Made by a program: the position numbers and the translations under genes. Source: a virus. From it: a DNA stretch of 29,324 nt. The notes beneath the pieces were generated by a model, which did not search any database, had not been told where the DNA came from, and saw only the letters and a program-made list of their open reading frames with translations. Location: IMG/VR virus record IMGVR_UViG_3300021961_006674, positions 1-29,324 of that record. One strand, written 5' to 3'. This document shows positions 7,299 through 13,258 of this stretch, piece after piece. How positions within the stretch are numbered: position 1 is the stretch's first letter; the number at the start of each line of letters is the position of its first letter.

Positions 7299-7946
7299 TC
7301 AAATTTCTACCGTAATCATTCTGTTAGCATATTCATGTGCATAATGTGTACGGGCACCATGAATACCCCAACCAATCCAACTGTACGCATAGTTCATGTA
7401 GCGGTTGATCGACTTACCAGGAGTTTTCATTTGATTTTCGATACGTTGCCACTGAACTTCATTTGTTAGATAGCGAAGTTGCGTTGGAAGTGTAGAAGGA
7501 TTACCCTCATACTTCTTGGCAAAATCACCCAATCCATAATAACGATTGGCAGATGTCCATTGGATCAGTCCATAGCCACGTCCGCAGCCATGGTAACTGG
7601 TCCTTGCACCACCTTCACAGATATTAGGCACGAATCCAGATTCCTGCTTAATGTTACCCATGATGGTAGCAAGGGCGTTTCTGTCTTTAATACCACGATC
7701 CTGGAAAAACGCCAGGGTGACATTCTCATTTTCATTACACCCTTTACAAATTAGCCTTAACTCTTTTGGCTTTTCGGGAGCAACCTCTTTGGTCGCTGTC
7801 TTCTCTTCATCTACAAGATTAAAATTCTTGAGCAATTCAAGAACAGGAGGTGGTCCTTGCATCTTGTAGTTGACGAATGGCAGTGTTGCCGCATTGGTTG
7901 TAACCGCTGCCAGAAGGGGCATGGCTACAGTAAAGAATTGTTGCAC
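7299..7946 (-). CDS. Phage tail-lysozyme-type peptidoglycan hydrolase, exported
   Basis: The C-terminal half matches the phage tail lysozyme family: NVTLAFFQDRGIKDRNALA (75-93), IMGNIKQESGFVPNIC (95-110, with E102 as probable catalytic Glu) and GYGLIQWTSANRYYGL (124-139). It is a muramidase or transglycosylase-like domain of lysozyme fold. The N-terminus has a hydrophobic stretch with Ala at -1 (MPLLAAVTTNAA, about 9-20), indicating export, then a Pro/Glu/Lys linker (45-65). The start is GTG 7946; ATG nine codons in would also give a signal peptide. No clear ribosome site is seen for either. The gene has its own strong promoter (8080-8108), a structured leader and a terminator. Confidence 0.85.
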   Translation of the reverse strand: MQQFFTVAMPLLAAVTTNAATLPFVNYKMQGPPPVLELLKNFNLVDEEKTATKEVAPEKPKELRLICKGCNENENVTLAFFQDRGIKDRNALATIMGNIKQESGFVPNICEGGARTSYHGCGRGYGLIQWTSANRYYGLGDFAKKYEGNPSTLPTQLRYLTNEVQWQRIENQMKTPGKSINRYMNYAYSWIGWGIHGARTHYAHEYANRMITVEI

Positions 7947-9678: not shown

Positions 9679-11625
9679 TCAGAATCTAAATTTGACTTTT
9701 GCAGCAACAGAATTGTTAGTCATACCATCATATGAACTGTGAGATCCTTCAACAAATACGACCTTGTTGACATCAATCGCAGAAAGAACTTCATAAGAAT
9801 TGTCGGTAGCATAAGATCCTTCAACACTCATACCAATCAGATCACCTTTCTTACCACCAAATCTGGTTTCAAGTCTAAGTCCTGCTTCACCAACATTTGT
9901 TGTATTGTTGAATGCAGCAACAGTTCTTGCAGATCTTGGATCACCAGTTTCAACATACGCATCTCTCTTTACGTTACGAATAGTATGTCCAATAAATGGA
10001 TGAACATTACGTCCAAGATGTGCATACAATCTATTGTTTACCCACCACTGTTGTCCATCAGTTCTACCGTTATTGTTGAATACACCTTCAACATTTCTAG
10101 AATAGTTATACTTATCGTTTGATAATCCACCGTTAGTGATAAGTGACAGATGCTTACCGTGGAATGAATTGAAGACACCGAAGTGCTCTCTGTTCATGTT
10201 TGAGGTGCTATCTGTACCATTCAGTTTGGTGTTTAATGTATTGTATTGTCCACCGATAGTCCAACCTTTGCTGAGGTCAATCTCAAGTCCACCGCCGTAA
10301 GATGAAGTGAATGCATCATATCCATCAACAGTAGACCACATAAGTCTGTTGTTATTGAAGACCCTAACCTTCTGATTAGTTCTTGATGGGAGATGATTCA
10401 GCAAACGATTAGAAGCAACACTAACTTTATCAAGTGTTTCTAACTGATCAATCCTTCCAAAGTAATCTCTGGATGCATATGTTTCTGCATAAGAAGTGCT
10501 GTGCTCATATGTAATAACAGATGGATCTGTTGTAACTGTATCTGGTGAACCATCAGTATAAACCTTTGTATAAACTGCTGTTGTAGTTACAGTTCTTACC
10601 GTTGGTGTTGTTTTTCCAGTAGTGGTGTGGTGATTTACTTTTTGAGTATTGCCACTTTCAGTTGGTGTGTATCTATGCGTATGAACTACTGTTGGAGCAG
10701 CACCAGAAGGAGCATATGCAGTTCTTTGAACATCATACGTTCTTGTCTCTACCCATACAGGAACAGTTGATTCTGTGACTACGGAAGTTCCAGCACCAGA
10801 ATCAGCAGTTGATGAAGTGGTGGTGGTTGTTCCGTTTGTTGTTACAGTTGAACCATCACTATAAGTATCAACTGTTGTTGGGGTTGTGGAAGTTACCGTT
10901 GTAGTTGTAGGAATAGTTGTGGTAACAGTATCTCTATAATATGTTCTTGTATCACCTGCTGTATTGAACACATAACGATCCTGTGTGGAAGTTACTGTTC
11001 TGCTACCAGAAGAAGTGCTGGTAGTAACGATATCAGCACCAGCAGCAGAAGATACTACTGTTGGTGTTGATGGTGTTCCAAACTCTTGAACGTCTGGGAT
11101 ACCATTTCCATTAGCATCACCAGAAAGAATTGCAGATGAAAGAGTTACTGTGGAACTACGAATAATTTGATCCATAGGTTCCCAGTCTTGGGTTGGAAAT
11201 GCATTTGGGTCATATGACTGAGCATCTCCCAAAGGAATATAGGTGAAGAGATAATCACCTGCAGCAAGACCAGTGAAGGTTACACCCTGCCAAGTATATG
11301 ATGTTTGAATATTAGTATCGTAAGGAACAAGTTGTGTTCCATCCGATGTAAAGTAGTTCGTGCCAGGAATCAATCCCGCTGGTGTAGAATTTTGAAGTAA
11401 GTCAAACTGTGTGATGGTAGGACCATAAGTTGTTCCATTAATACCATCCAATCTAATTTCAGCTTCATTAAATGTGGTTCCACTGTGCCAAGAACCATAC
11501 CAGAAGGTAATACCACCTTGTCCATCTCCAACGTAACCAATAGAGTTAGTGTGCGACAGTGCTGCTGTTGGACTTAAACCAAACGCAAGCGCACCTGCAG
11601 CAGCAAGTACTTTTTTCGTAGACAT
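9679..11625 (-). CDS. Autotransporter-like outer-membrane protein, 648 aa
   Basis: Layout: signal peptide 1-24 (ends SPTAALS), N-terminal globular region 25-165, an EF-hand or dockerin-like calcium loop D170-E181 (DANGNGIPDVQE), and a very Thr/Ser-rich stalk about 185-380. From about 415 to 648 there are alternating amphipathic strands typical of a beta-barrel. The chain ends VKFRF, with the terminal Phe expected of a BAM-recognised outer-membrane strand. This is the plan of a classical autotransporter: exported passenger, stalk and barrel anchor. The host outer membrane is the likely site. Roles could include changing the surface of the infected cell, blocking other phages or aiding release. 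Good ribosome site (AGAGGA, 5 nt spacing), held in a switch-like leader. Confidence 0.82.
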   Translation of the reverse strand: MSTKKVLAAAGALAFGLSPTAALSHTNSIGYVGDGQGGITFWYGSWHSGTTFNEAEIRLDGINGTTYGPTITQFDLLQNSTPAGLIPGTNYFTSDGTQLVPYDTNIQTSYTWQGVTFTGLAAGDYLFTYIPLGDAQSYDPNAFPTQDWEPMDQIIRSSTVTLSSAILSGDANGNGIPDVQEFGTPSTPTVVSSAAGADIVTTSTSSGSRTVTSTQDRYVFNTAGDTRTYYRDTVTTTIPTTTTVTSTTPTTVDTYSDGSTVTTNGTTTTTSSTADSGAGTSVVTESTVPVWVETRTYDVQRTAYAPSGAAPTVVHTHRYTPTESGNTQKVNHHTTTGKTTPTVRTVTTTAVYTKVYTDGSPDTVTTDPSVITYEHSTSYAETYASRDYFGRIDQLETLDKVSVASNRLLNHLPSRTNQKVRVFNNNRLMWSTVDGYDAFTSSYGGGLEIDLSKGWTIGGQYNTLNTKLNGTDSTSNMNREHFGVFNSFHGKHLSLITNGGLSNDKYNYSRNVEGVFNNNGRTDGQQWWVNNRLYAHLGRNVHPFIGHTIRNVKRDAYVETGDPRSARTVAAFNNTTNVGEAGLRLETRFGGKKGDLIGMSVEGSYATDNSYEVLSAIDVNKVVFVEGSHSSYDGMTNNSVAAKVKFRF

Positions 11626-11763: not shown

Positions 11764-12294
11764 CTATCCCTTCTTCCAAGATTCACCTTCTGCTTTTCTT
11801 CTACGTGCAAGACCTGCTTCTACATTAGAACCAGGATTGCGGTAGAGATAAAGTGCATCAGGAACCTTGTCCCACTCTTTGTTCTTTAAAACGCGAGTAA
11901 TTGTATTAAAATTGCTACCACCGTAGAACCCTGCTCCTAGATTATAAGCAAAACTTAGAAGTGCTCCACGCTTACCATCACTCATTTCATTCCAGTGTGG
12001 AATCTTAGTAAGTGCTGGAATAAACTGACTCTTGCATTGACTGATCAGAAGTTCATCTGCTTCTGCTTGAGTAATCTTATCACCCATCTTGAATGGTGAA
12101 CCATCCTTCTTACGGGTGGATCCCCAACCAATAGTGATTGGTAGGTTACCTGATAGAGGATCTGGATAAGCAGATAAGTGACATCCTTCAAACTCTTTGA
12201 TTAACTTCAGACCGCTCGCAGGAACATCACCAGGGGCAGCGGTAGCACCACTACCCCCACTTACTTTCCCAGAGACTTGCCACAATGAGGACAT
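11764..12294 (-). CDS. GH24 lysozyme domain, probably made as a -1 frameshift fusion
   Basis: T4/P21-type lysozyme that cleaves peptidoglycan. Motif LIKEFEGCHLSAYPDP with E36 and D45, then ITIGWGS with T54, matches the Glu/Asp/Thr catalytic set. LLSFAYNLGAG (115-125) and the C-terminal NVEAGLARRRKAE are also typical. There is no signal peptide; residues 10-29 are a Gly/Ser/Ala/Pro linker. The frame has its own ATG at 12294 with AGGAG close by, but it overlaps the 3' end of 12261-12479, where a -1 frameshift signal lies. The shift would give a 238-residue protein: 72 residues from the upstream frame plus 166 from this one. The linker makes most sense in that fusion. Confidence 0.9.
   Translation of the reverse strand: MSSLWQVSGKVSGGSGATAAPGDVPASGLKLIKEFEGCHLSAYPDPLSGNLPITIGWGSTRKKDGSPFKMGDKITQAEADELLISQCKSQFIPALTKIPHWNEMSDGKRGALLSFAYNLGAGFYGGSNFNTITRVLKNKEWDKVPDALYLYRNPGSNVEAGLARRRKAEGESWKKG
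12232..12270 (-). promoter_or_regulatory. Programmed -1 ribosomal frameshift signal
   Basis: Slippery heptamer G GGA AAG (12264-12270) in the zero frame, directly followed by the stop TAA (12261-12263). A 5-nt spacer (TAAGT) leads into a 12-bp stem: GGGGGTAGTGGT (12258-12247) pairs fully with ACCGCTGCCCCT (12243-12232), three G-U pairs, 3-nt loop. GGGAAAG is the heptamer used by lambda gpG-T. Slipping leads exactly into the lysozyme frame. Confidence 0.8.
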
Positions 12295-12479
12295 ACATCT
12301 CCTGCAGGTGCAGCTGCAGTAGACCCTGCTTTATTACCTCTATAAAGTTCTGCCCAATCAATATCATCTTCTAGATACTTAACTGGAAGATTATCCTCTA
12401 ACCATTGAACTGCTTTGACGTGGTTAGGGTTCTTCTCATCATAATATTGAAAAAAGTTATGTAAATCAACTCTTGCCAT
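12261..12479 (-). CDS. N-terminal LHNFF-type domain protein, 72 aa; zero-frame part of lysozyme fusion
   Basis: Residues 4-31 (DLHNFFQYYDEKNPNHVKAV and WLEDNLP) are nearly identical to the N-terminus of the C39 peptidase at 12587-13258, so this is a discrete module carried by two wall enzymes. Ala/Gly/Pro linker residues follow, then CPHCGKSLGK, a half zinc-ribbon knuckle, before TAA. The stop comes right after the slippery heptamer, so most ribosomes would make this 72-residue form and a fraction the lysozyme fusion. It has no export signal. The module may target the enzyme to the virion, the wall or a partner; its function is not known to me. Confidence 0.85.
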   Translation of the reverse strand: MARVDLHNFFQYYDEKNPNHVKAVQWLEDNLPVKYLEDDIDWAELYRGNKAGSTAAAPAGDVCPHCGKSLGK

Positions 12480-12612
12480 CTTGTCCTCCTATATTTGGAA
12501 AGTATATGTTAAAAAGTTCTGATGCTTCTTTGTGTTTACCTTGGTCCGTGAGTTTCTTCACCTCTTCCAGAATTTTCTTTTTAAACTCAGGCGAAGATCC
12601 TTCCCCACCCAT
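12466..12612 (-). CDS. Small charged helical protein, 48 aa
   Basis: Begins MGGEGSSPEFKKKILEEVKK, a single amphipathic helix region followed by ASELFNIYFPNIGG. Two in-frame ATGs stand side by side; the second (12612) is best spaced from GGAGG, the first is 12615. It overlaps the end of the C39 peptidase gene and the start of 12261-12479, bridging the two in a coupled chain. Family unknown. Confidence 0.7.
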   Translation of the reverse strand: MGGEGSSPEFKKKILEEVKKLTDQGKHKEASELFNIYFPNIGGQDGKS

Positions 12613-13258
12613 CATTACCTCCTGGACACCAACGGTGCTTTAATACTGCTTTAGTATAAATGGTCTTCTTACCATTTGTTACTGGACCACTATAGTTATC
12701 GTTGAGAGAACCATATGGATCATTAACATAGTATCCCTTTCCATCTGGAGTCTTACCAATTACTACACACATGTGACCGCCAGTAGGAGCAGATAAAGAA
12801 CCCCTGTGGAGAATGCCAATAACAACAGGCTTCCCTCTATCAAGGCTCTTATCAATATCAGCAAAGGAAAGATTGTAGCTAAAATGAGACTTAACTCCAT
12901 AACCCGCAAGAACTTTTGTTTGAACTGCGTGGTCGGTTGTATCACCAATCTCAAATACTTTCTTGACATACTCATCATCACCTTTGATGCTTCCTGGCTT
13001 GAGGAAAGCAAGACACATAGCACACGATGAACTGTTACAAGTTCTATGTGCATCTCTGTAGTTATCTACCTGATTGAAATAAGGAACGTCAAGAACCGCA
13101 GGTGCAGGGGGTTTTGTTCTAAAAATTCCTACCCAATCGGATTGTGAATCATCCAAAAATTCCTCAGGAAGATTATCTTCCAACCACTGAACCGCTGCTA
13201 CATGATTGGAGTTCTTCTCATCATAATACTTAAAAAAGTTATGAAGATCTAGAGTCAT
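12587..13258 (-). CDS. C39-type cysteine peptidase with N-terminal LHNFF domain
   Basis: Papain-like cysteine peptidase of the C39 group. The N-terminal module 4-31 (LHNFFKYYDEKNSNHVAAV) is shared with the lysozyme fusion. After a Pro/Ala linker (about 48-55), the catalytic domain starts VLDVPYFNQVDNY. It carries C74 in RTCNSSSCAM (catalytic Cys), H162 in GGHMCVVIG and D180 in YVNDPYGS, a full Cys-His-Asp set. No signal peptide is present. Such domains in phages cut peptide bonds in the wall or process proteins; the shared module with a lysozyme favours a wall substrate. A perfect late promoter lies 24 nt upstream. Confidence 0.87.
   Translation of the reverse strand: MTLDLHNFFKYYDEKNSNHVAAVQWLEDNLPEEFLDDSQSDWVGIFRTKPPAPAVLDVPYFNQVDNYRDAHRTCNSSSCAMCLAFLKPGSIKGDDEYVKKVFEIGDTTDHAVQTKVLAGYGVKSHFSYNLSFADIDKSLDRGKPVVIGILHRGSLSAPTGGHMCVVIGKTPDGKGYYVNDPYGSLNDNYSGPVTNGKKTIYTKAVLKHRWCPGGNDGWGRIFA

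Follow-up and report, generated by a model that had tools for sequence, protein, structure and literature searches.

The stretch of viral DNA analyzed here (the window; 29,324 nucleotides, IMG/VR record IMGVR_UViG_3300021961_006674) has a gene order of outer membrane protein, ferredoxin, peroxiredoxin, C39 peptidase and lysozyme that matches that of Synechococcus phage DSL-LC02 (Kyanoviridae). On the minus strand, a 72-aa frame with a strong start signal ends in CPHCGK-S-LGK-stop, written TGT CCT CAT TGT GGC AAG TCT CTG GGA AAG TAA, and the last two sense codons together with the preceding G form the heptamer G_GGA_AAG. Read at -1, the message continues as GTA AGT GGG GGT into a 176-aa ORF encoding a GH24 lysozyme (PF00959, E=7e-23), giving a protein of 72+166=238 residues. 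The features of the locus are as follows.

12587 to 13258, minus strand: C39-like peptidase, the upstream neighbour, with the same N-domain fused in frame
12485 to 12490, minus strand: Shine-Dalgarno sequence AGGAGG of the 72-aa/238-aa product (duplex energy about -10 kcal/mol, calculated for locus L166, which is identical to the window here)
12261 to 12479, minus strand: zero-frame ORF of 72 aa, consisting of the N-domain (MARVDLHNFF...WAELYRG), an Ala/Gly linker, CPHCGKSLGK and TAA; predicted non-frameshift product
12292 to 12294, minus strand: ATG of the 176-aa ORF, a possible independent start that is not conserved
12276 to 12293, minus strand: CPHCGK motif (one CxxC knuckle) just before the slip site, present in every frameshift-type locus
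12264 to 12270, minus strand: slippery heptamer G_GGA_AAG
12261 to 12263, minus strand: zero-frame stop TAA directly after the heptamer
12232 to 12258, minus strand: putative stimulatory stem-loop of 12 bp, including G-U pairs, with a 3-nt loop (about -21.5 kcal/mol), starting 5 nt after the heptamer
11764 to 12264, minus strand: -1 frame part of the fusion, from GTA (12264-12262) onward, with the linker VSGGSGATAAPGDVPASG and the GH24 lysozyme; stop at 11764-11766
11788 to 12198, minus strand: GH24 phage lysozyme domain (PF00959)

The initial annotation had described this arrangement of heptamer, stop, stem-loop and lysozyme frame, and its coordinates are right; the observation is confirmed with one small correction, since it placed a 5-nt spacer between the TAA and the stem, whereas the 5 nt between heptamer and stem include the TAA. 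It had also pointed to the neighbouring C39 peptidase as a carrier of the same N-terminal domain, and indeed, this domain is fused there in frame, with 65% identity. A chance arrangement is excluded by this shared domain, by the codon use and stem stability described below, and by a comparison of the 103 ORFs of at least 40 aa in the window, of which only this one has an X_XXY_YYZ heptamer within 5 codons of its stop followed by a long open -1 frame and a strong stem.

If the two frames are joined by a programmed -1 slip, the heptamer, spacer and stem should be conserved in relatives, a comparison that had been proposed together with the interpretation. Therefore, we collected relatives from IMG/VR and phage genomes by homology and pattern scans and determined for each whether the N-domain and the lysozyme lie in one frame. 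Of 135 distinct loci with both parts, 107 are plain in-frame fusions, including those of the isolates DSL-LC02 and DSL-LC03; none of these has a stop between the parts and none has GGGAAAG as a zero-frame heptamer in the linker. The other 28 loci are out of frame, all by exactly -1, and all 28 keep YTG GGA AAG TAR (TAA in 20, TAG in 8) followed by a GC-rich stem whose core starts 5 to 6 nt after the heptamer. The sample was drawn by similarity and by pattern, so these counts are not frequencies in nature, but no out-of-frame locus without the signal was met. Relatives with an intact lysozyme frame but no heptamer, which had been named beforehand as a finding that would speak against frameshifting, were encountered mainly as in-frame fusions, and these support it, since they show that the fused protein is the usual product of the gene. 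Three in-frame loci (L035, L101 and L122) have a CxxCGK insert in the linker region without heptamer or stop; the cysteine knuckle can thus exist without frameshifting, and these loci may represent a step before or after the frameshift cassette.

To avoid selecting for the heptamer, we scanned IMG/VR for any coding of CPHCGKxLGK. The scan returned 38 contigs, of which 37 are this lysozyme gene and one (L189) is unrelated; other pattern hits (L202, L203-L206) are unrelated genes as well. All 37 lysozyme contigs carry YTGGGAAAGTAR. From the codon usage of these genes, the probability of YTG GGA AAG for the peptide LGK is about 0.027 per sequence, yet 28 of 28 loci use it. Within the 26 recoded sequences aligned, GGA, AAG and GTA are 100% identical at synonymous sites, compared with 64.5% overall, whereas the equally conserved CPHCGK codons next to them vary at synonymous sites. 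All frameshift-type loci are metagenomic contigs, and no isolate with the site was seen in the phage records searched. Likewise, the pattern gave no hit in the bacterial genome contigs searched.

Next, we analyzed the stem. In each locus, a predicted helix begins close behind the stop. MAFFT did not align both stem arms because the loop lengths differ, and therefore, the arms were joined with a constant spacer for the pair count. A 7-bp core is paired in all 17 distinct arm sets (100% of cells), 6 of 7 pairs show changes on both sides, 27 cells are compensatory, and 0 of 500 shuffles reached the covariation score, with sliding controls well below. The arms were taken from single-sequence folds, which favours pairing by construction and inflates the percentage paired. 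Two sequence types exist (GCGGCAG/CTGCCGC and GGGCAGC/GCTGCCC), plus variants such as GGACAGC/GCTGTCC. When the same -1 peptide was recoded with synonymous codons, the stem was lost (mean z of -3.1, compared with -0.6 for the linkers of in-frame controls). Linkers rich in Ala/Gly form GC stems easily, however, and several loci of one stem type have a z of only about -1 to -1.9. The distance of the helix core from the heptamer agrees with published spacers, which are usually 5 to 9 nt (PMC5009743) or 5 to 8 nt (PMC4066793), and in E. coli G_GGA_AAG is reported as highly shift-prone, slipping on A_AAG being linked to weak pairing of a sole tRNA-Lys (PMC5009743). The tRNA-Lys set of the host was not determined; a search for Synechococcus genomes through ferredoxin returned only haloarchaea. 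The -1 frame leads to the GH24 domain in all loci, and the lysozyme is under purifying selection, with amino acid differences of 8% at a synonymous identity of 0.64 and with the catalytic E/D/T motif intact in 28 of 28 loci. Peptidoglycan cleavage and a role in lysis were not tested, and no holin was looked for in detail.

Other readings of the locus were then considered (ALTERNATIVES). The lysozyme could be translated on its own from a start in the -1 frame, with the heptamer and stem being incidental. Indeed, ATG 12294, which the initial annotation had named as a competing start, has AGGAG 4 nt upstream (duplex -7.4 kcal/mol), and stand-alone lysozymes without the N-domain exist in relatives such as S-SRM01. 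However, this start is not conserved: in 15 of 28 loci, the lysozyme frame has no open start upstream of the heptamer, typically because GGT AAA puts a TAA in that frame, so an upstream start cannot replace frameshifting there. The window itself has no start downstream before the lysozyme domain, and the downstream ATGs of the PMMG stretch found in relatives also occur in in-frame fusions and mostly lack a good Shine-Dalgarno sequence. Moreover, an independent start does not explain the frozen GGA AAG GTA codons or the covarying stem, and we consider it very unlikely. A frameshift mutation, a decaying gene or a sequencing or assembly error might be suspected because most relatives are in-frame fusions, but this is refuted by recurrence: the same break occurs at one exact site in 37 contigs (about 31 metagenome sets, judged from contig names) plus the window, down to about 75 to 77% DNA identity, and the lysozyme is under selection. 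Polymerase slippage would also join the frames without a conserved start, but GGGAAAG has no long homopolymer, and a conserved GC-rich stem at a typical frameshift spacing with an adjacent stop fits ribosomal slippage; polymerase slippage is very improbable.

Taken together, these data strongly support the interpretation of the initial annotation, and the site is almost certainly a programmed -1 ribosomal frameshift site in a cyanomyovirus lysozyme gene (probability of about 0.94). In this view, ribosomes start at ATG 12479 and read the N-domain, the linker and CPHCGKSLGK; with tRNA-Gly on GGA and tRNA-Lys on AAG and with the ribosome paused by the stem-loop, a fraction would slip back one base, avoid the adjacent TAA and make the 238-aa N-domain-lysozyme, whereas the rest would stop and release the 72-aa N-domain protein. 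The comparison of loci strongly supports the signal, its conservation, selection on the site to join the two frames by -1 and the full fusion as the expected product; the fraction of ribosomes that slip is inferred, and the use of the short form is inferred more weakly still. Neither translation nor a frameshift product was measured.

As to why both products would be made, our preferred guess, about as likely as not, is that the short form is a partner subunit that assembles with the full-length enzyme in a set ratio. The single CxxC in both forms suggests pairing through zinc, but that is a guess, and assembly was not assayed. Tentatively, and rather less likely than not, one may go further and envisage a two-component endolysin whose subunit ratio is set by frameshifting, in which most ribosomes release the N-domain subunit, a minority make the full lysozyme, and the two assemble, perhaps by a shared zinc ion, into the active or correctly placed enzyme, while the linker cassette with knuckle, slip site and stem spreads among cyanophage lysins by recombination. 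The main alternative is that the 72-aa protein has no role and that the signal only throttles the output or timing of the lysozyme, since a low-frequency -1 site would hold the enzyme level down. This is possible, although somewhat less likely than not: the CPHCGK part is invariant in amino acids beyond what the heptamer needs, with synonymous change, so the peptide itself is selected, though it is also part of the long form, and throttling alone would be simpler with a weaker ribosome binding site.

The closest known systems differ in several respects. The tail assembly chaperone gpG/gpGT of lambda uses the G_GGA_AAG heptamer. This tail chaperone frameshift, near the end of a short frame and giving a short and a long product, is widespread in phages (PMC5009743), but the gene found here encodes a GH24 lysozyme and lies next to a C39 peptidase and a peroxiredoxin rather than next to a tape measure gene, a stop sits directly after the heptamer, and a covarying stem follows. 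The dnaX gene of E. coli (tau/gamma) has a heptamer ending in A_AAG with a downstream stem-loop stimulator as well, but it uses A_AAA_AAG, has an upstream Shine-Dalgarno stimulator, and the frameshift gives the short product. Two-polypeptide endolysins of phages of Gram-positive hosts (CTP1L, LysIME-EF1 and others; PMC4777826, PMC9430671, PMC7098653) also yield a full-length enzyme and a shorter form from one gene, and in studied cases the two assemble and activity changes; there, however, an in-frame internal start gives a C-terminal form sharing the stop codon, whereas here the short form is N-terminal and ends at its own stop at the frameshift site. Frameshifting also adds Ig-like extensions to a fraction of phage coat and tail proteins (T3, A2, A118; PMC5009743), but the part added there extends a structural protein and here it is the catalytic domain itself. 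Finally, the in-frame fusions of Synechococcus phages DSL-LC02 and DSL-LC03 have the same N-domain, linker position and lysozyme and a similar neighbourhood but a single reading frame and no CPHCGKxLGK, heptamer or stop.

The mechanism is known, and its use in a phage cell-wall enzyme gene is the new part. The initial annotation knew of no phage lysozyme made this way, and literature searches for frameshifting with endolysin, lysin or lysozyme, restricted to open-licence papers and judged from titles, abstracts and term counts so that an unseen report is possible, surfaced no such case. A 2016 review describes phage cases in tail and coat genes and does not mention lysozyme or endolysin (PMC5009743). 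The present site would tie recoding to phage lysis and offers a compact natural cassette (heptamer, stop, covarying stem) for testing frameshifting in cyanobacteria. It also corrects annotation, since gene callers will report a 72-aa orphan and a truncated lysozyme.

On the lysozyme protein tree (121 rows), the frameshift state is scattered among closely related lysozymes, and at least 8 changes are forced by well-supported branches; DNA trees agree in direction but are less resolved. The cassette of knuckle, slip site and stem therefore seems to have been exchanged by recombination in the linker or lost several times. A C39 match is found in 33 of the 37 frameshift-type contigs, the other four having too little upstream sequence. 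The N-domain occurs only in Synechococcus phages in the collection searched, and where we looked, its carriers are lysin-type genes. The targeting function that had been suggested for it is unproven. An AlphaFold model of the 72-aa product showed three helices with a mean pLDDT of 58, too weak for a fold search, a profile search of solved structures found nothing significant, and neither fold nor binding target is known. Just downstream of the lysozyme, a 648-aa protein (9679-11625, minus strand) has a signal-peptide-like start, a long Thr/Ser/Val-rich stretch and a possibly barrel-like C terminus but no Pfam match; the gene at this place in DSL-LC03 is annotated as an autotransporter barrel. 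A second protein resembling a peptidoglycan hydrolase, judged by eye only, is encoded at 7299-7946 on the minus strand (CKGCNENENVTLAFF...GNIKQESGF). In Synechococcus phage S-CREM1 (L291:1992-3173), a single ORF annotated as lysozyme carries the lysozyme match first and the N-domain match after it, a shuffled order of the same modules.
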